This document shows, piece after piece, positions 38,107-49,217 of a DNA stretch of 64,000 nucleotides (its first letter is position 1; each line of letters begins with the position of its first letter). Location: contig BGKB01000116.1 of the NCBI GenBank assembly GCA_003116975.1, positions 163,160-227,159 on the forward strand, in the 5' to 3' direction. The notes beneath the pieces are model-generated. The model searched no databases, was not told the origin of the DNA, and saw nothing but the letters and a program-made list of their open reading frames with translations. Source of the DNA: Aurantiochytrium sp. KH105 (lineage: Eukaryota > Sar > Bigyra > Thraustochytrida > Thraustochytriidae). The translations under genes and the position numbers were made by a program.

Positions 38107-41100
38107 ATGGACCTGGCTTCGGGCGCGATCAACTGGTCCCCGAAGGGCGCCGCGGGATGGAGCCCTCTGCACTTGGCCGCCGCGTGCGGCGACATGAAGC
38201 GCCTCGTGACGCTGCTGGACTGCATCAAGGAGGAAGAGGATGAGAACAAGAGCGGCGACGAACGCCCCGGCCGCAGGCGACCCCTGCAATCAGAAGACAG
38301 AAGTAGTAGCCAACCCGGCAACCGCCTCGAAGCGCGGGCCTCGAGCGGCGACCGCGCCTTTCACGTCGCGCTCCGCAATGGCCAGGTCCTTGCGGCGCGC
38401 GAGCTGGCCCGCGCAGGATGCGACGTGCACGCCAAAGGCAAAGACGGCGAAACTGCTGCGCACATTTGCGCCTTGATGGACATGGCGGAGGAGCTCACGT
38501 GGATGATCCGCTCGCATAAGCTGGACCCGACTGTCACAACCGACCGCGGCGAGACCGTGATCCACTGTGCGAGTCGCGAATGCAGGATAAGCTTTTTGCA
38601 GTGGGCCACGCGCGAATCCTTTTGCACACCAGAATTCTTTTGCCAGGTCGACAAACTCGGACAGACCTGTGCGCACTACGCTGCCCGGAACGGTATTCGG
38701 ACAGGGGTAAAGTGGGTTCTCGACTTCCTAGACTCGCTCGAGAAAAAAGACCCAGAATTTGACGTGCTTCTCGGCATTCCTTGTAACAATCAAGGCAAAG
38801 ATCCCTGCGCCTTGGCGCGCAGTGAAGGTCATTACATGTGCGCAGAACTTTTGGACGAATATAAGAAGACCAAGTCAAGGGATCGCAAGTTCCGCAAACA
38901 AGCCCTGAAGCGTATGTTCGATGCTGCGCGGAGAAACAATCTCAAATCCGTGCAGACGCTTCACAAGAAACACTCGCGACACTTTGATATCCTTGCGGCC
39001 CGCAATCCTCGTTCGGGCAACTGTGCAATATTCGAAGCGGCCGCAGCCGGCAGCACTGAGATCGTGAGGTGGATCCTCGATCGTGCTGCGCGTGATGACT
39101 TTTCATATATTGAGGTGACGAACCCGCGCACGGGAGAAAGCTTGCTTCACAAGGCTGCTGCCTCGGGAAACGCCAGACTCGTCGAGCTCCTCTTGGACCG
39201 GGGATTTGATTCAGAAGCTACAGATGATAAAGGAGCGAAGCCGCTTGAGTTGGTCTCCGCTCACGATGCGGAGGCGATGGAACTTCTCAAAAGGGCGACC
39301 GATAGACAAGAGTCCAAAATGAAGGAGGCGGAGGGTTTGAGTTCCTCGGACGCGAGTGCTCCTGGGGGGGCGCAAGGTGGGCCAGGTGCGGGGGGCGCCG
39401 GCTCGCGAGTCGCCGAGGGATCCACAATGAAAGCTCGGAAACCTGAGCATTCTTCGTCCCAATCTTCGATCCAGTCTCGTCTTGAGGAAAAGCTTTCTCA
39501 TTTGAAGGACTGGCTTGCAGACTTGGACATGGAGGACTGGCTCGACAAAATGTGCGAAGAGGGCTTTGACTCTCTTGAGCGAGCGCAACTCATTAACGAG
39601 GAGGATCTCGCTGATTGGGGAATGAAAAAGGGGTACCGTCGCTCATTCTTGCGCGCGCTCGAGTCTCTTCGCACCGATGACGCTGAACCCGATACCACCA
39701 CCGACGCCATCTCGGAGCCTCCTAGCCCGGCAGCAGCTGCCGCGACTGCCAATGGGAGTGGCGCAAGCAGCACTCTTGCTGCAACATCGACGACGTCATC
39801 GACGGCCTCGACTTCGCCCTTGTCTTCGTCCTCATCGCTGCTCCCTCCTTCGTCCGCGCCATCCAACAAACCTTCGTACACCGCCCTGCAGCCATTGCTT
39901 TATGACGAGATGCTCAACGACTTGCGTGAGGGCGACGAGGTCACCATTGATGGATTCACGGCAGGCAACAAGTACGCCCGGGGTCAGCCTAGGCGGTATG
40001 TTTTACGTAGAAGTGGACCCGTGTACGAGTGCACATGCCCCGAGTGGAAGCTAAATCAAGGGCCGCGAGAGGCCCGAACCTGCGATCACCTCAAGGAGTT
40101 TCGCGGCGAGCAGGCAGAGCTTCGTCGCATCGATTTGCAGCGTATGCGCATGTTCCAAATGCAATCGCTTCAAAATGAAATTCGCAATCGCGTGGCACGG
40201 AACAAGATCACGCGCTCGTTTACAGTAAGTGGGATTTCCTCGGGTTCGGATTCCAAGGTGAGCTCGGGCGAATCGGCACACTCGGGATCGAACCGTTTGA
40301 ACCCATCAAGGTCGCTAGGCAAACCATTAGCGCGCTCCCAGTCTGTGTCGGGCTCAGTCATATCGCGCGAGTCGCTCCAGGAGTCTGTCGGCGTGCCCTC
40401 GCACCAGATTTTGGCCTACGAGGAGTTGACCTTTGGGCAAATTATTGGCGAGGGCTCCTTTGGCGTTGTGCGTGCGGCCGAGTGGCGCGGTATGCTGGTC
40501 GCGGTCAAGGAGCTCCGCGGAAACGAAAAGCTCATGTTGGCGGGCTCGAACCCAAGTGGGGTCGAGATCGACACGGCGCTTCTGGGGGGTGATCATGCCG
40601 GTGTTGGCGCTGGCGGTGCCAAGGCGGGCGAGGTCGAGGGTGAGAACAATGGCAATCCGTCTGGTCTCGCGCGCGGGGCTTCGTGTTCGTCCGAGGAGTG
40701 GGATCTGAAGCACGAGGCGGCCATGATGTCTCGCGTCAGCAACCACGAGAACATCGTTCCCTTTGTCGGGGTGCTGCTAACTCCGCGGCCCTGTGTAGTT
40801 ACCAAGCTCATGCGTGGCGGGTCGGTGGAAGACATGCTTGTGGTTCCCGGTCCTTTGTACAAACGTAAGACTATCCCGGAGGCGCGCATTTTGCAAATGC
40901 TCGTCGACGCTGCCGCAGGAGTGCTGCATCTTCACTCGGAGGGAGTCATTCATCGCGACATTGCCTCGCGCAATCTCTTGGTCGACGAAAATTTGCGCGT
41001 CAAGGTTGCCGACTTTGGTTTTGCGAGGATCAAGGAAATCAATCGCTCCAAGGGCTACACTTCTCAGCACGTGGGGCCTATCAAGTGGATGGCGCCGGAA

Positions 41101-41469
41101 GCCATGCGATATCGTCGATTTTCCGAACAAACGGACGTCTTTTCATTCGGAGTGACTCTCTTCGAGGTCCTCGTCGGCAAGCGTCCTTGGGAGGGTATCG
41201 AAAGCATGGACGTGGTGTACCGGATTTGCGACGGTGAGCGCCAGCTCGTTCCTGACGAGGTGGAGTGCAACCAGGCGCTTCGCGATCTCGTCAAGCGTTG
41301 TCAACGTCACGGGCCCGAGGAGCGTCCTGTCATGAAGGAGGTCCACCGTATTCTTGCCTCGGTCTTGCAGACCTCGCAGACACCTCCGCCAAAGCCTCCG
41401 ACATCATCTGCATCTCACACCCCGTCAGCGGCGTCTCAAGGCAGAAATTACGTTCCTTTTCACTCCTAG
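38107..41469 (+). CDS. Ankyrin-SAM-SWIM-kinase protein (TKL/tyrosine-kinase-like)
   Basis: A single-exon 1120-residue protein. Residues about 10-400 hold ankyrin repeats (GWSPLHLAAACGD, DGETAAHICALMD, GETVIHCASRE, GQTCAHYAARNG, GESLLHKAAASGNARLVELLLDRG). A SAM-like domain follows (about 468-522, LEDWLDKMCEEGF-type, then LINEEDLADWGMKKGYRRSFLRAL). After a Ser/Ala linker comes a SWIM-type zinc motif (about 640-660, CTCPEWKLN...CDH, i.e. CxCx(n)CxH). A full kinase domain lies from about 773: GEGSFGVV, VAVKEL, HRDIASRN (about 948), VADFGFA, PIKWMAPEA. HRDxAxRN plus KWMAPE is tyrosine-kinase-like. The kinase N-lobe has a ~55-residue Gly/Ala insert after the catalytic Lys. All catalytic residues are present. 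Confidence 0.9.
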   Translation: MDLASGAINWSPKGAAGWSPLHLAAACGDMKRLVTLLDCIKEEEDENKSGDERPGRRRPLQSEDRSSSQPGNRLEARASSGDRAFHVALRNGQVLAARELARAGCDVHAKGKDGETAAHICALMDMAEELTWMIRSHKLDPTVTTDRGETVIHCASRECRISFLQWATRESFCTPEFFCQVDKLGQTCAHYAARNGIRTGVKWVLDFLDSLEKKDPEFDVLLGIPCNNQGKDPCALARSEGHYMCAELLDEYKKTKSRDRKFRKQALKRMFDAARRNNLKSVQTLHKKHSRHFDILAARNPRSGNCAIFEAAAAGSTEIVRWILDRAARDDFSYIEVTNPRTGESLLHKAAASGNARLVELLLDRGFDSEATDDKGAKPLELVSAHDAEAMELLKRATDRQESKMKEAEGLSSSDASAPGGAQGGPGAGGAGSRVAEGSTMKARKPEHSSSQSSIQSRLEEKLSHLKDWLADLDMEDWLDKMCEEGFDSLERAQLINEEDLADWGMKKGYRRSFLRALESLRTDDAEPDTTTDAISEPPSPAAAAATANGSGASSTLAATSTTSSTASTSPLSSSSSLLPPSSAPSNKPSYTALQPLLYDEMLNDLREGDEVTIDGFTAGNKYARGQPRRYVLRRSGPVYECTCPEWKLNQGPREARTCDHLKEFRGEQAELRRIDLQRMRMFQMQSLQNEIRNRVARNKITRSFTVSGISSGSDSKVSSGESAHSGSNRLNPSRSLGKPLARSQSVSGSVISRESLQESVGVPSHQILAYEELTFGQIIGEGSFGVVRAAEWRGMLVAVKELRGNEKLMLAGSNPSGVEIDTALLGGDHAGVGAGGAKAGEVEGENNGNPSGLARGASCSSEEWDLKHEAAMMSRVSNHENIVPFVGVLLTPRPCVVTKLMRGGSVEDMLVVPGPLYKRKTIPEARILQMLVDAAAGVLHLHSEGVIHRDIASRNLLVDENLRVKVADFGFARIKEINRSKGYTSQHVGPIKWMAPEAMRYRRFSEQTDVFSFGVTLFEVLVGKRPWEGIESMDVVYRICDGERQLVPDEVECNQALRDLVKRCQRHGPEERPVMKEVHRILASVLQTSQTPPPKPPTSSASHTPSAASQGRNYVPFHS

Positions 41470-42407: not shown

Positions 42408-45239
42408 ATGCTGGGCGGCGCGCGCAAGCCCGGCAGGGACGAGACGCCGCAGGGACGCGACGCTCGCGCGGGTTCGGACGGAGACGGCGGAGAGAGGGGC
42501 GCCGGGACGGCGACGCTGACAGAGACGATGAGCGCGCAGGAAGGGAAGGACGGCGCGCCGCGCAAGAGCGGGTGCCTCGAGAAGGTCAGCTCGGTCATCA
42601 GCAGCACGCTCGCGGGCGCCTTCAAGAGACTCGGCCACATGGTCGGCATGCGCCCGATTCTGACCATCCTCATCTCGATCGTCATGCTCGCTATCTTTGG
42701 ATATGGGTTCGCGAACTTTGAGTCCGGCGACGACCAAGGCGCCTTTGTGCCGCAAGGCACCGAGGCGCTCGCCAACCGCGCTGATATTATCGAGTACTAT
42801 GGCCAATCGCCTCGCTTCAACAGCTTCATGCAGAAACCCTCAGACAACGGCAACATCCTCGACAAGGAGAACATGGTTGCCGCCTTAACGTTTTACTCGG
42901 AAATGTACGAAATCTCCGTGACGGCCCTCAACGAAGACCTCGAGGAGGAGACTTTCACGCTTGAGGATCTCTGCGTGCAGATCCCGACCGGCCCCACAAC
43001 CTCTGTGTGCCTCTTTAGTTCTGTTTTCAGCGCATACGCGAACAACCTGACCACTTTGGAGGAGGACGACAACATCCCACAAACGCTCAACGACACCTTT
43101 TCTCGCGACGATCTCGAACTCTACGTGGGCGGAGTCGAGTACGATGCGTCGACGGGCCTCCCGGTAAGCGCTAAAGTGCTGCGATCGACTCTTTTCTTGG
43201 AAAAGAACCCCATCGATGTCACCCCGAACGATGACAGCTCCGACACGGAGGAACCCGCCGCGACTGCCTGGGAAGAGGCTGTTGTGGAGCTCGCCAATGA
43301 CTTTGCGGACGCTCAGCCTGTCGAGGTGTATCCCTTCAACGGCTGGGCCGTTAGCGATCAAGTCGGTGGCGAAATTGTTGGGGATGTCATGTATCAGGGC
43401 ATCAGCTACTTCATCATCATCATCTACATCGTTGTGGTGCTTCAAAACACTTGCGATCGCGTGAGAAGCAGCATTGCCCTTGCTCTTCTTGGCATTCTCA
43501 CCATTGGTCTTGCCATTATCTGTGGCTTCGGCTTTAGCCAGCTGCTCGGCTTCACCTACGGACGCACGCACACCGTTCTCGTGTTCATCATCCTTGGTAT
43601 CGGCGCAGACGGCATTTTCATTGTCACGAACTCCTTTCGTCGCGCTAGTGGTGAGGACGGCATCCCCAACCGCGCCGCGCAAGCACTCGAGCACGCAGGT
43701 GTCAGCATCACCGTCAGCAGTCTCACCAACGTGGTCGCATTTGCGCTTGGATCTCTCACTGTCATCCCTGACCTGAGCTCCTTTTGCAAGTACGCAGCGC
43801 TCACCTTTTTCTTCCTTTGGATCTTTCTCCCCACCTTTTTCATGGCGTGCCTCGTGCTCAACGAGCGCCGTGTTACGGGTGGCCGTCTGGATCTCCTCTG
43901 CTGCTTCAAGGACTGCCGCGACCCTGAATCGGGCGAGACTGCAAAGGGCACGACATTTAAGCAGACGTGGCTGTCGACCTTTTTGCAAAACAAGCTTTCG
44001 TGGCTGATCATGCAAAATTGGTTCCGCTTTCCTGTGATTCTCCTGGCACTCGGCTTTGCTGCGTATTGTGGATACAATATCACGAAACTCACGGTGGAGT
44101 CGACTTCGGAGAACTTTATCCCCGATGACTCGTACCTCAAGTCTTTTACCAATGCGCAGGCCAGATACTTTGGCGGTGAGGATACGAGTGTGTACGTCGT
44201 GACGGAAGATATGGACTACTACGCCAATCGGGCGGAGGTTGTCGCGTTCCCGGACCAATTCCGCTTTCCATCAACGTACGAGACCCAGGCACCGTATATT
44301 CGGCCGACATTCGATTCCTGGATTGAGGACTTTATGGCTGCCATGGCTTCGCCGCCTGCGACGCTTACAATTGACGCTGGCGAGGTCGAGGCTGATGCGG
44401 AGCTCGATAACGCGCCCTTCCCAACCTCCTCCGATCTCTTTTACAAGTACCTGCGTCTGTGGCTTGACGATGACTTTGGAACCGGTGCAGCCTACGCAGA
44501 TGACATTATCTTCACGGACAGCTCTCGGTCGCAGATTGTGCGGGCGCGCATCCAGATGTACCACGTGCCCATTGGTAGCTTTCAGGACGACGGGCTTTTC
44601 CAGGAGGATGCCTACGAGGTTGTCAACGCCGTCGAAAAAATGTACGAGATCTGCGACGCGGCGTCCTTTGAAGCTTACGCGTGGGGTTCCGAGTACACGG
44701 ATGGGTGGGCCAGCTACGCCGTGGTGGCGCAGGAGCTTCAACAGAACGTTCTGCTCGCGCTGGCGGCTGTCTTTGTGATGATCTTCCTGTTCATTGGCCA
44801 TCCTTTGGCATCGACGCTTGTCTTCATCTGTGTTTCGATTTCGATCGTGGAGCTTCTTGGTCTGCAGACACTGATGGGGCTCAGCATTGACACCACCTCT
44901 GTTGTGCTCTTTGTGCTTTCTGTTGGTGTAGCTGTTGACTACTCGGCGCACATCGGCTATGCTTACATGACGTTTGCGGGTTCTGCAGAGGAGCGTCTTC
45001 GGGGAATGCTTGGCGATGTAGCCGTGCCTGTGCTGCACGGTGCCATGTCGACCTTTTTGGCGGTGCTCATGCAAGCGTTTTCTTCGAGCTACGTCTTTCG
45101 TGTTGTTTTTCAGGATTTTGCTGTCATCGTTAGCGCAGCCACTCTCAATGGACTTATCCTCTTGCCCATTCTTCTTTACACCTTCAATCCTCCGGCCTAT
45201 CCGTCTGCAAAGAGCGTTGACGCTGCAATGACTCCCTGA
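42408..45239 (+). CDS. Patched/Dispatched-like RND-superfamily membrane protein with sterol-sensing-like domain
   Basis: A 943-residue protein with the duplicated 12-helix RND plan. TM1 is at about residues 83-105; a large exoplasmic loop follows. Helices 2-6 (about 330-490) look like a sterol-sensing domain (YFIIIIYIVVVLQ, ALLGILTIGLAIICGFGFSQLLG, VFIILGIGADGIFIVTNSF). TM7 lies at about 535-555, then the second loop and helices 8-12 (about 783-930), including LSVGVAVDYSAHIGYAYM. GxxxD motifs in both TM4 and TM10 are the ion-relay signature of Patched, Dispatched and NPC1 relatives. Such proteins move sterols or lipidated cargo using an ion gradient. The N-terminal ~50 residues are hydrophilic and the C-terminus is very short. 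Cargo unknown. Confidence 0.88.
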   Translation: MLGGARKPGRDETPQGRDARAGSDGDGGERGAGTATLTETMSAQEGKDGAPRKSGCLEKVSSVISSTLAGAFKRLGHMVGMRPILTILISIVMLAIFGYGFANFESGDDQGAFVPQGTEALANRADIIEYYGQSPRFNSFMQKPSDNGNILDKENMVAALTFYSEMYEISVTALNEDLEEETFTLEDLCVQIPTGPTTSVCLFSSVFSAYANNLTTLEEDDNIPQTLNDTFSRDDLELYVGGVEYDASTGLPVSAKVLRSTLFLEKNPIDVTPNDDSSDTEEPAATAWEEAVVELANDFADAQPVEVYPFNGWAVSDQVGGEIVGDVMYQGISYFIIIIYIVVVLQNTCDRVRSSIALALLGILTIGLAIICGFGFSQLLGFTYGRTHTVLVFIILGIGADGIFIVTNSFRRASGEDGIPNRAAQALEHAGVSITVSSLTNVVAFALGSLTVIPDLSSFCKYAALTFFFLWIFLPTFFMACLVLNERRVTGGRLDLLCCFKDCRDPESGETAKGTTFKQTWLSTFLQNKLSWLIMQNWFRFPVILLALGFAAYCGYNITKLTVESTSENFIPDDSYLKSFTNAQARYFGGEDTSVYVVTEDMDYYANRAEVVAFPDQFRFPSTYETQAPYIRPTFDSWIEDFMAAMASPPATLTIDAGEVEADAELDNAPFPTSSDLFYKYLRLWLDDDFGTGAAYADDIIFTDSSRSQIVRARIQMYHVPIGSFQDDGLFQEDAYEVVNAVEKMYEICDAASFEAYAWGSEYTDGWASYAVVAQELQQNVLLALAAVFVMIFLFIGHPLASTLVFICVSISIVELLGLQTLMGLSIDTTSVVLFVLSVGVAVDYSAHIGYAYMTFAGSAEERLRGMLGDVAVPVLHGAMSTFLAVLMQAFSSSYVFRVVFQDFAVIVSAATLNGLILLPILLYTFNPPAYPSAKSVDAAMTP

Positions 45240-45960
45240 GAGCCTGCCTGCCTGCCCGCCTGCCTTCATGCTGTAATGGCTTTTCTCTCTTTCTAGCCTC
45301 TTTTGTTTTTCTCATTTGTCAATCGATGAATTTTCTACGACTTTACTGTTTTCTAAAATGAGTCATTTTCTTTGCAAGTCATGGGGCCAATGACTCCGGT
45401 CTCGGGTGTTGCATGACTGTGCGTAATGTAGAAGGTTGGCCTCCGCCGGCGAATTCATTCATTATTGAGCCGCTTTACATACTCTTTATGTTCCCCACCA
45501 AGTCGACATTTTGCTTGCACCCTCGCCATCGCTAACCTACTGCGCTTGCCAACCAACTCTGCTGCACTGACGATTGACCGCCATTTCATCAGCGGCCACG
45601 GCAGCGACCCGTCGGGGGCTCCGCAAGTGTTGGGCGCAGGCGAGTTCGCGAAGCATGGGATACCTCGTCGCCGCGCAAAGTCCGCCATCCGCATTTCACA
45701 AGTGAAGAATAGGCTTCCACAAGTGGGCAATGGGCGGCCGGAAGAAGGCAGCCCCGTCGCCGACCGAGGCTCCGAGGCCGAGAGGCGCGCGGCAAAGCTG
45801 CAACGCATCGCCGCTGGCACGCGCGGGAGCGGCGCGGCGCCTAGGCCGGCAGACCGACAACCAGGCGGAGGAGAGCGAGACATCTACCCGCGAGCGAGAG
45901 TTTGCTTGGAGAGCAACGGCAAGCCGGGCCGCAGCTGCCAGGCAAAGTCTCGAGCTCACC
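45240..45960. other. Intergenic region upstream of NMD3
   Basis: 721 bp: an initial CCTGCCTGCCTG-type run (45241-45264), an A+T-richer middle, and a GC-rich leader before NMD3. An open frame runs about 77 codons upstream of the NMD3 ATG but is Arg/Ala-rich and not conserved-looking. Confidence 0.55.
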
Positions 45961-47631
45961 ATGGCTGGCGTCGGGAAGCCGGCGCTCCCGGACATCGCGT
46001 GCTGCATGTGCGGCGTGAGCATCCAGCCGAACGATGTGAACATGTGCTTGCAATGCCTCAAGGACCGCGTGGACGTGACAGAAGGCATCTCCAAGCAAGA
46101 GGTTATTTGGTCATGCAGTGGGTGCGGCAAAGTCAAGTCCGAGGAAGGCCGCTGGCTGGCCTGCGAACCCGAGTCCGCCGAGCTCCTCGCACTGTGTCTC
46201 AAGGCCGTGCACGGGCTCGGCAAGGGTAAGGGCAAGGGCCAGAAGAATGGAGCTCACTTTGTCGACGCAAGCTGGATCTGGACCGAGCCACACTCGCGCC
46301 GCTTGCGCATTCGCATCACCGTCGAGAAGGAAGTCTTCAATGGTGCCGTAGTGCGCCAGCGCTTCGAGGTCGAGTTCATTGTCAAGACAAGACTGTGTAC
46401 CTCGTGCGTCAAGGAGACCACCGATCAGCAATGGACGACCGTGGTTCAGGTCAGACAGCAGGTTTCGCACAAGCGCACTCTACTCAATCTCGAAAATCGA
46501 CTTTTGCAAGGCGGTGGGGCGCGGGGCGCGCTCGACGTGATCCCCGTGTCCACGGGCATTGACTTTTACTTTGCCAACAAGACTCTTGGCAACAAATTCA
46601 GCGACTTCGTTATGTCGGCTGTGCCTGCGCGTCGAAAGGAGAGCAAGAGTCTTCAGGGCGCTGATTTGCGGAGCAACACGTACAACTATCGCCATAGTAT
46701 TGCCATCGAGGTGGTCCCCATTTGCAAGCACGACTTTGTCATTTTGCCACACAAACTGCAGCACTCGCTCTTTGGCGGCAAGTCTGCGGCTGTTCTGTGC
46801 TACAGCGTCACGCGAACGCTCAATTTGATCGACCCATACACGGGCGCCCGTGCCAAGCTGCAAGACGTCAAATATTGGCCGAACGCGTTTCGCCCCATCG
46901 CAACGTCGCGCAATTTTACTGAGTTCACCGTCCTCGACGTTCAACCGCTGAGCTACGGCGGGGCAGACTCTGGCGACGGCGAAGGTCCTCCGATCTGCGA
47001 GGTTGAGGTCGCGCGCATGGCAGACTTTGGTGTCAACGATGAGCGCTTCACGGTGAATTCCCATATTGGCATGCGCCTCGAAGCCGGTGACACTGTCCTT
47101 GGTTACGATTTTTCGAGCCACAATCTCAGCGATGATCTCACAGCCCCGCTCAAGGGTCGCGAGCTCGAGCCCATCGTGCTCGTGCAAAAATACGTCGAGA
47201 AAACCCGGAAGCCTCGCCACCGCAAGCCCCGCAAGGCAAAGGGCAAGGTGTCGAGTACTGAGGCCGATGCAGACATTGTCGATGGCGAAAATGCTGGAGA
47301 CGCTGCTGGTGCAGACGGCACGGCGCAAGAGAACGACGTTGAGGCCGAATTTTTGGATGGTGACGATGTCAACGGAGAAGGTGGCGAAGCGGACGAATAT
47401 GATTTCGAGGATGAGGGAGACAGCGCAGACGACGATGGGATCGACTTTGGCGATGAAGATGAGGAGGATCTCATCGAGGACGACGAGGATGAAATGGCTT
47501 CAGACGGACAAGACGAGACACAAGGTAGTGCTGGTGAGCCTCCAAGTAAACCATCATCGAGCGAAAATATCTCGACGCAGGACGCAGAGCTCGCAAAAGC
47601 AGCTGAAGACAAGTTGCATGTATCGGAATAA
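45961..47631 (+). CDS. NMD3: 60S ribosomal export protein NMD3
   Basis: A 556-residue protein from the ATG at 45961. The N-terminal zinc part is diagnostic: CCMCGVSIQPNDVNMCLQCL, DVTEGISKQ, then WSCSGCGK, WLACEPESAELLALCLK. Middle parts also match (NGAHFVDASWIWTEPHSRRL, FEVEFIVKTRLCTSC, GIDFYFANK, NTYNYRHSIAIEVVPICKHD). NMD3 loads late in the nucleus onto the large ribosomal subunit and bridges it to the exportin CRM1. The C-terminal ~150 residues hold a basic stretch (RKPRHRKPRKAKGK) then a long acidic run, the area that in other species carries import and export signals; hydrophobic export-like spacing is not obvious here. It ends only 35 bp from the convergent polymerase gene. Confidence 0.95.
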   Translation: MAGVGKPALPDIACCMCGVSIQPNDVNMCLQCLKDRVDVTEGISKQEVIWSCSGCGKVKSEEGRWLACEPESAELLALCLKAVHGLGKGKGKGQKNGAHFVDASWIWTEPHSRRLRIRITVEKEVFNGAVVRQRFEVEFIVKTRLCTSCVKETTDQQWTTVVQVRQQVSHKRTLLNLENRLLQGGGARGALDVIPVSTGIDFYFANKTLGNKFSDFVMSAVPARRKESKSLQGADLRSNTYNYRHSIAIEVVPICKHDFVILPHKLQHSLFGGKSAAVLCYSVTRTLNLIDPYTGARAKLQDVKYWPNAFRPIATSRNFTEFTVLDVQPLSYGGADSGDGEGPPICEVEVARMADFGVNDERFTVNSHIGMRLEAGDTVLGYDFSSHNLSDDLTAPLKGRELEPIVLVQKYVEKTRKPRHRKPRKAKGKVSSTEADADIVDGENAGDAAGADGTAQENDVEAEFLDGDDVNGEGGEADEYDFEDEGDSADDDGIDFGDEDEEDLIEDDEDEMASDGQDETQGSAGEPPSKPSSSENISTQDAELAKAAEDKLHVSE

Positions 47632-47666: not shown

Positions 47667-49217
47667 CTATTGGAAATAAGACGTTATTTTGGATCGCTTT
47701 ACTGGCCGGGAAGATGGCTTTGCTGCTCGACAAGGCAGCTTTGCATCCTCAGCTTTTGCAGGTGGAGGTGAATCACCCTCGTCACAGAGATCGATTACGT
47801 CCGATCCGAGGGTCTCTGCTGCCCGCGGAAGTGTTTTACGGGGTGGAGCGCGCGATGCTGGACCTTGCGGTGGAGGCGCTGCTGGCGTTTGTTCGGGTCT
47901 TCCAGAGTTGGATGGCTTTGCGAAGAACTGCTTGATTCCCCGTTGCTGATGCGTGTTTGTGGACAAAGTGTGGAAATCTGCAATTGCCAAGTTGATTCGA
48001 CTCAGTAGAAATGAGGGCGAGGGGAGACAACCGCGCAAGAGGCCCTGGGCGCATCGGTGTAGCGCATCCACATTGGCGAACACGCACTCGTCCACTTTGC
48101 ATTGCTTTGATACATGACGACGGCCTCGTCTTCTATACGCCTCGTGTTCTGCACGGTTTGCAAACGATTGACTGTCGCGCGTCTCGCTGCCAATCTTGTC
48201 TGTGATGCTCACGCGGAGAGTGTGAGCCACTTGATTGTGTTTTTCACGACGCTCGCGCACAAAGTCCATGATACGAGTGCAGAGGACGCGAAGTCTCGCA
48301 TTTGCCGACTCCCACGTGTCGGGATGTGGAAGCGAGGTTTCCTCTTGGGAAATTGTCTTGGCTTGCTCTGAGGGCCGAATCGGGCGCTCGTCGATTCCGC
48401 GGACAACCTTGAAGACGAAGTCGGCCTGCGAGGCATTACCGAGCGCCCGCGTGAGACGATCGAGCGGAACATCTCGAATTTGCGCGCAAGTCAGTGCATA
48501 GGGACTATCGACAACGCTTGGATCGGAGAGTGCCGCATGAATTTGGCGCAGCATGGACCGTCCAAGACCTTGAACCCGACCCGCCGGAAGATCTGACATG
48601 TACGTGCAAAGTGCGTCGGGGAGAATAATGGACTGCTGATTGGGCTTGTGCAGCTCTGCTGCAAGCTTGGCGCTTGTCTTGCACGTTCCGACGCCGGCGC
48701 AGGACCGAAACTGCAGTTCTTGCAAAAGAGCGTCGCGCATTTCTTGGGCGATGACGGAAGCCTGGGCGAGACGAGCGCGAGTGACACGGTCGAGAGTGTC
48801 TTCCTCCCCAAGAAGATGGCCAACAAAGTCAAGCTGAGAAGCCTCATACGCGCCTACTCGCGTGTCGACGAGCGCCGAGACGTCAACAAAGGACTCGTCC
48901 ATGCCCTTGCGCTCCACCGGACATCCGAATCGCGTCAACACGGCCGCAATCTCCTCGCTTGCTTCCCTGAACGGCCGGAGGTCGCTCCCGTCCACAATGA
49001 CGAGCTCGGGGCATCGCTGCTTCGAGTCCTCGAGGGACATGAGCTTGCTCACGCCGTGCGCGCGCGCCTCATAGTTGCACGTGACCGTGATGTACTTTTG
49101 CCGCACGGCCAGAGGCTTCCCGCGCAGCTCGGGACGCAGCCTCTCCAGGGCCTGCGCGTAGAAGCAGTCGAGGTCCACGCAGACGACCTCGCGCGCGGCC
49201 CGCGGCCCGCGCGGCAT
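47667..49217 (-). CDS. POLI: Y-family translesion DNA polymerase, iota type
   Basis: A 516-residue protein from the ATG at 49217. The palm carries the metal ligands in VCVDLDCFYAQ (D15) and GMDESFVDVS (D107, E108). QKYITVTCNYEARAHGVSKL, followed by CPELVIVDGSDLRPFREAS, is the pattern of polymerase iota rather than eta, kappa or Rev1. A helix-hairpin-helix thumb part (AGVGTCKTSAKLAAEL, VQGLGRSMLRQI) and little-finger domain follow. The tail has a consensus PCNA-binding box, QRGIKQFF (425-432), a SUMO-interaction-like DVIDL (473-477) and, at the extreme end, KITSYF, a second PIP-like motif. No ubiquitin-binding UBM is evident. The enzyme bypasses DNA lesions. Divergent from the transporter gene. 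Confidence 0.92.
   Translation of the reverse strand: MPRGPRAAREVVCVDLDCFYAQALERLRPELRGKPLAVRQKYITVTCNYEARAHGVSKLMSLEDSKQRCPELVIVDGSDLRPFREASEEIAAVLTRFGCPVERKGMDESFVDVSALVDTRVGAYEASQLDFVGHLLGEEDTLDRVTRARLAQASVIAQEMRDALLQELQFRSCAGVGTCKTSAKLAAELHKPNQQSIILPDALCTYMSDLPAGRVQGLGRSMLRQIHAALSDPSVVDSPYALTCAQIRDVPLDRLTRALGNASQADFVFKVVRGIDERPIRPSEQAKTISQEETSLPHPDTWESANARLRVLCTRIMDFVRERREKHNQVAHTLRVSITDKIGSETRDSQSFANRAEHEAYRRRGRRHVSKQCKVDECVFANVDALHRCAQGLLRGCLPSPSFLLSRINLAIADFHTLSTNTHQQRGIKQFFAKPSNSGRPEQTPAAPPPQGPASRAPPRKTLPRAAETLGSDVIDLCDEGDSPPPAKAEDAKLPCRAAKPSSRPVKRSKITSYFQ

Follow-up and report, generated by a model that had tools for sequence, protein, structure and literature searches.

The question raised by the locus described here is what a kinase might do in one and the same protein with ankyrin repeats, a SAM domain and a zinc domain of a type that our searches otherwise found in DNA ligases. 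The locus lies in a 64,000-nucleotide stretch of DNA, referred to below as the window, where positions 38107-41469 of the forward strand form a single open frame of 1120 amino acids with an ATG start and its sole stop at the end. Along this frame, ankyrin repeats are followed by a SAM domain of weak signal, then by a zinc motif of the form CxCx14CxH and lastly by a complete kinase, a list and order which an earlier note, made from the letters alone, had given and which Pfam, isolated segments and a profile of the zinc domain reproduced. Beyond animals and their closest relatives, few lineages are on record with tyrosine kinases, and to our knowledge the activating inputs of the kinases in these lineages are largely unknown. 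A kinase joined to such a zinc domain would offer a testable input for phosphotyrosine signalling in a protist.

The unity of the frame was assessed in the genome assembly (76 Mb, 367 contigs), where the locus is present twice, on the contig of the window (C116) and on C44, and the two copies were taken as two haplotypes. Comparison of the two frames gave 59 synonymous and 19 non-synonymous changes, corresponding to a ratio of non-synonymous to synonymous substitution rates (dN/dS) of 0.10, with no non-synonymous change inside the SAM or the zinc domain, and revealed one insertion or deletion (indel) in 3363 aligned bases, of 15 bases, located in the linker between the zinc domain and the kinase. 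The 2003 aligned bases upstream held 29 indels, 26 of which were not multiples of three, and the roughly 934-938 bases downstream held five, two of which had a length not divisible by three. The low dN/dS, together with the lone 15-base indel as against 29 upstream, confirmed that the frame is one coding unit under purifying selection, and the conservation of the frame between haplotypes speaks for a single unbroken coding exon that begins at about the ATG named above, in keeping with the uninterrupted frame of the earlier note. Full-length matches in the genome were confined to the two haplotypes, and the remaining matches covered the kinase region only, at 25-36% identity (41 scored of 1389 candidates); the gene is apparently single-copy.

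We then considered the zinc domain, which had been read as a SWIM motif with DNA-linked kin. The Pfam SWIM model, PF04434, gave no match over its cut-off, either in the whole protein or in the isolated segment, and the domain is therefore termed SWIM-like here. This silence says little, since even at E <= 0.1 the same model covered only two of 23 ligase-type relatives. A profile built from 82 domains of bacteria and viruses, with the window sequence left out, recovered the domain at 53.5 bits with a domain E-value of 8.4e-13 (search space set at one million sequences), so that the domain search of the translation bore out the SWIM-like reading through this custom profile and failed to do so through Pfam. 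The real segment scored 60.4 bits. Of 2000 shuffled segments with Cys and His fixed, 1907 were listed, the highest at 19.8 bits, and of 2000 plainly shuffled segments 1543 were listed, the highest at 5.2 bits. The reverse search of the whole genome with one bacterial domain returned two matches at E <= 10, both to this gene, one in each haplotype, with an E-value of 4.0e-9. A SWIM fold is defined by two strands followed by a helix around the ligands, and the predicted structure, in a model starting at residue 594 to which the aligned relatives were supplied, fits this definition, with strands at 37-43 and 46-49 and helices at 52-56 and 67-73 (model numbering) placed round the ligands. The mean predicted local distance difference test score (pLDDT) of the model was 83.5, with block values of 92-93 over model residues 41-80. 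Elsewhere in the genome, a separate SWIM protein (C13:729114-729182 and C197:87921-87989; L001, L002) passed PF04434 at 26.5 bits, the cut-off being 19.6.

The relatives of this domain were found in phages and bacteria. Three phage records were listed by tblastn, among them an uncultured phage of 485 kb (E 1e-3), whose frame encodes a SWIM-like domain at the N-terminus and an ATP-dependent DNA ligase behind it; the phage domain led in turn to two further viral contigs and to a third locus that was the same phage at 100%. In bacterial genomes 122 loci were confirmed and 80 kept, their titles naming mostly Planctomycetes, Myxococcota and Verrucomicrobia; these 80 and the two further viral contigs supplied the 82 domains of the profile. 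A DNA-ligase motif lay downstream of the zinc domain in 78 of 82 frames, and two of the four frames that lacked it end early after the zinc domain. Eight of the 82 frames, partly selected by length, were examined with Pfam and all contained ATP-dependent ligase domains. A second viral scan, sharing two contigs with the first viral set, yielded 20 loci, 19 of them with the ligase motif. With relatives that so regularly precede a ligase motif, the zinc domain of the window protein is, as judged by sequence, of DNA-ligase type. As an observation in its own right, the SWIM-like domains N-terminal to ATP-dependent ligases in bacteria and large phages (L013-L092, L141-L160) suggest a subfamily that largely escapes PF04434.

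The kinase was matched in the whole protein by PF07714 at E 1.5e-57, and its catalytic residues are complete, with AVK at 799, HRD at 949, DFG at 969 and an APE. Two putative tyrosine kinases described in Phytophthora infestans, PITG_02400 and PITG_02529, are marked by HRD(I/L)AARN in the catalytic loop of subdomain VIb and by a proline in subdomain VIII (PMC3019232). The window loop, HRDIASRN, fits HRD(I/L)AxRN and is one residue off the HRD(I/L)AARN criterion, and the second-position proline of subdomain VIII is present (GPIKWMAPE). The tyrosine-kinase-like HRDxAxRN and KWMAPE motifs reported earlier were thus found in place, as was the insert of about 55 residues in the N-lobe, which differs at two amino acids between the haplotypes. 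None of 25 other kinase stretches in the genome, haplotype copies included, carried the subdomain VIII proline (23 had GT and two GS), and 16 of the 25 had HRDxKxxN in the loop, the other nine falling outside the loop pattern used. When the kinase domain alone was compared with PDB, the best 60 of 1869 matches were all tyrosine kinases. For a control kinase of the genome (L117) treated alike, 13 of the 14 best rows were kinases of the tyrosine kinase-like (TKL) group, namely CTR1, MLT/MAP3K20, roco4, MAP3K9 and MAP3K12, and most later rows were ABL. The kinase therefore appears tyrosine-type by its motifs and matches, its placement in the group being unproven.

Seven places in the genome show the HRDxAxRN codon pattern, and the kinases among these are the window gene and one second gene, each in two haplotypes. 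The second gene (L130:42-4703 on C15, with its second haplotype on C247) encodes a kinase with HRDIAARN in the loop, a proline in subdomain VIII and a SAM_1 domain (E 4.5e-7) N-terminal to the kinase, together with an upstream formin-type Drf_GBD match below its cut-off (E 6.8e-6); neither ankyrin repeats nor a SWIM domain were found in it by Pfam. Its best PDB matches were tyrosine kinases in 58 of 60 cases, CTR1 taking ranks 3 and 4, and the two kinases are 37% identical in a two-sequence alignment. Since SAM precedes the kinase in the C15 protein and no SWIM domain was found there, a SAM-kinase was probably the core, to which the zinc domain would have been added in the window gene.

The same genome holds further candidate components of a phosphotyrosine system. 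Ten matches to SH2 domains were obtained over both haplotypes, in four frames of each, and 16 to classical tyrosine phosphatases, with two genes strong. The presence of these domains places candidate writers, readers and erasers of phosphotyrosine in one genome, a candidate small set made up of the two HRDxAxRN kinase genes found, the SH2 proteins and the tyrosine phosphatases. A tandem SH2 protein was also noted, with two matches in one 768-aa frame (C193:81463-81981 and C43:424690-425208).

The explanation that we put forward, giving it an even chance, is that the gene encodes a non-receptor, SAM-clustered kinase of tyrosine type whose ankyrin and SWIM-like parts pick its partners. The ankyrin array (PF12796 in the whole protein, E 3.9e-25, in four stretches with the best at residues 272-373) and the zinc domain would select partners or a location, contacts between SAM domains would cluster the protein, and the clustered kinase domains would phosphorylate one another in the activation loop, for which Tyr984 is a candidate. 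The active kinase might then phosphorylate tyrosines of its partners, marks that SH2 proteins of the same genome would recognise and its tyrosine phosphatases would remove. That the kinase is active and specific for tyrosine, that SAM clusters the protein into anything like the oligomerising scaffold suggested in the earlier note, and that the SWIM-like domain binds zinc and a partner are all steps that we infer.

Several observations weigh against this explanation. The SAM domain was seen in the whole-protein Pfam search only as PF07647 at E 0.021, below cut-off, and was not among the 73 matches at E <= 0.01 of a genome-wide SAM_1 scan. The SAM-like domain named in the earlier note was nevertheless recovered from the isolated segment, by SAM_1 (E 2e-5, 25.3 bits, cut-off 23) and by SAM_2 (20.8 bits, cut-off 20.5), and in a single comparison it aligned with the SAM domain of the C15/C247 kinase at 30% identity over 67 amino acids (E 9e-12); we take it to be real yet, given its absence from the 73, divergent. 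With the whole protein as the query, the TKL kinase CTR1 reached 115.1 bits, close behind the best Src chain at 117.9 bits. Of the four alignments listed, only that with the SRC-ABL ancestor brings Tyr984 onto the loop tyrosine; against EGFR it is one residue off and against Src and ITK three, and its equivalence to that tyrosine is therefore uncertain; in the C15 kinase no tyrosine was found between DFG and APE. The kinome phylogeny suggested in the earlier note was carried out as a small tree of 22 rows, with five tyrosine kinases and two TKL kinases as references. In this tree the window kinase and that of C15 fell on the side of the tyrosine kinases, at a support of only 76/80 and without a star, and a supported group (96/89) made up of the five animal-type tyrosine kinases left both outside. 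A sister relation of the window and C15 kinases (p-AU 0.479, approximately unbiased test) was neither supported nor rejected by the tree.

The low tree support and the alignment-dependent fit of Tyr984 lend weight to the view that the protein is a Ser/Thr or dual-specificity kinase of the TKL group, converged on tyrosine-kinase-like motifs, with SAM and ankyrin serving as a scaffold. Ankyrin and SAM do occur on Phytophthora kinases, TKL kinases included, and the Phytophthora paper itself leaves room for convergence (PMC3019232). Both marks of the substrate region are, however, of tyrosine-kinase type, as are all 60 best PDB matches of the kinase domain, and we regard the TKL assignment as a serious possibility that falls somewhat short of even chances.

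It could also be envisaged that the kinase is coupled to nucleic acid or DNA damage, the zinc domain binding DNA ends or structured nucleic acid and so localising or activating the kinase, an idea that can hold with either assignment of the kinase group. It draws on the ATP-dependent DNA ligases that the relatives precede, and five of the eight ligase frames examined with Pfam also carry WGR, PARP or BRCT, modules linked to DNA breaks. In these relatives, too, DNA binding by the zinc domain is presumptive. Several residues that are invariant among the ligase-type relatives differ in the window, which counts against a simple carry-over of function: Asp stands in place of the Lys that follows the third Cys and precedes the His, beside the last ligand, Asn after the Trp is replaced by Leu, and nine residues are inserted. 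In MEKK1 the SWIM domain is a substrate receptor for c-Jun, going by the title of a reference in PMC13072407. A nucleic-acid-coupled kinase is thus unlikely. Less probable still would be its combination with the tyrosine-type kinase, in which a zinc domain from the lineage of prokaryotic DNA ligases was placed into an existing SAM tyrosine kinase, with SAM on one side and the kinase on the other, giving a nucleic-acid-sensing tyrosine kinase outside animals in which DNA ends or structured nucleic acid would bring about SAM clustering and this in turn phosphotyrosine signalling.

Finally, an artefactual architecture, in which the frame would be a fusion of two genes, such as an ankyrin-SAM protein and a kinase, or would hide an intron, is very improbable: Ser/Ala-rich linkers flank the zinc domain on both sides, constraint is weakest in the ankyrin-SAM linker (dN/dS 0.47, on three synonymous and four non-synonymous changes) and the sole indel lies in the SWIM-kinase linker, but both haplotypes hold one frame through every linker, and between them the SAM-SWIM linker has a dN/dS of 0.04 and the SWIM-kinase linker one of 0.12.

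Features of the kinase gene, given in window coordinates
Feature	Position	Strand	Basis
Whole open frame, 1120 aa	38107..41469	+	Translation; haplotype comparison
Ankyrin-repeat region, residues about 15-400	38149..39306	+	PF12796; bounds by eye round the Pfam stretches
SAM domain, residues 466-522	39502..39672	+	SAM_1 on isolated segment; likeness to SAM of C15/C247 kinase
Ligase-type SWIM-like zinc domain, residues 601-676	39907..40134	+	82-member profile; predicted structure
CxCx14CxH motif, residues 642-661	40030..40089	+	Sequence
Long predicted helix right behind zinc motif, residues 668-707	40108..40227	+	Model residues 75-114
Kinase domain, residues about 772-1083	40420..41355	+	PF07714; N-lobe start from PDB alignments
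Low-complexity insert, beta3 to helix C, residues about 807-860 by eye	40525..40686	+	Sequence; kinase alignment
Catalytic loop HRDIASRN, residues 949-956	40951..40974	+	Sequence
Tyr984, activation loop	41056..41058	+	Sequence; PDB alignments
Subdomain VIII GPIKWMAPE, residues 990-998	41074..41100	+	Sequence; WMAPE from 994

The kinase gene is adjoined in the window by a gene for a sterol-sensing/Patched protein (NPC1-like) at 42408-45239 (+), and further on NMD3 (45730-47631, +) lies beside a Y-family (IMS) DNA polymerase match (47667-49217, -). With regard to the host, which had been thought a probable stramenopile, we infer a thraustochytrid-like organism from a match to a PfaA-type polyunsaturated fatty acid synthase (930 bits, E 1.4e-278, below the family cut-off of 1010); the same model also matched 11 of 14 control genomes, none over the cut-off.

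No report of the same domain order was found among the open-access papers that the searches listed, this genome being the sole eukaryotic one covered, and the known systems share parts of it. SAM and a kinase stand in one protein in ZAK/MLT and the Eph receptors, where the kinase lies ahead of SAM; we know of no ankyrin or SWIM domain in either. MAP3K1 (MEKK1) unites a SWIM zinc domain and a kinase in one protein as the window protein does, in another order and with a kinase of another group; it is a Ser/Thr MAP3K with RING/PHD and TOG domains, and the text of PMC13072407 used here describes no ankyrin or SAM in it. Neither RING/PHD nor TOG was matched in the window protein by Pfam at E <= 1. 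Among the stramenopile kinases, PITG_02400 and PITG_02529 resemble the window kinase in their loop and subdomain VIII proline, and PITG_02529 has transmembrane domains; the part of that paper drawn on here mentions no SAM, ankyrin or SWIM for either (PMC3019232). In Acanthamoeba, with 22 tyrosine kinases, a full phosphotyrosine set in a protist has been published (PMC4053784). The C15/C247 SAM-kinase of the same genome shares with the window protein the SAM-then-kinase order, the HRDIAxRN-type loop and the subdomain VIII proline, and carries the Drf_GBD match, with neither ankyrin repeats nor a SWIM domain found in it by Pfam. The zinc domain itself is most akin to that of the SWIM ATP-dependent DNA ligases of Planctomycetes, Myxococcota, Verrucomicrobia and large phages, being 36-46% identical to 22 aligned relatives. 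In those proteins, however, a ligase follows the zinc domain, whereas in the window protein, in which Pfam matched no ligase domain over its whole length, it is a kinase that follows.

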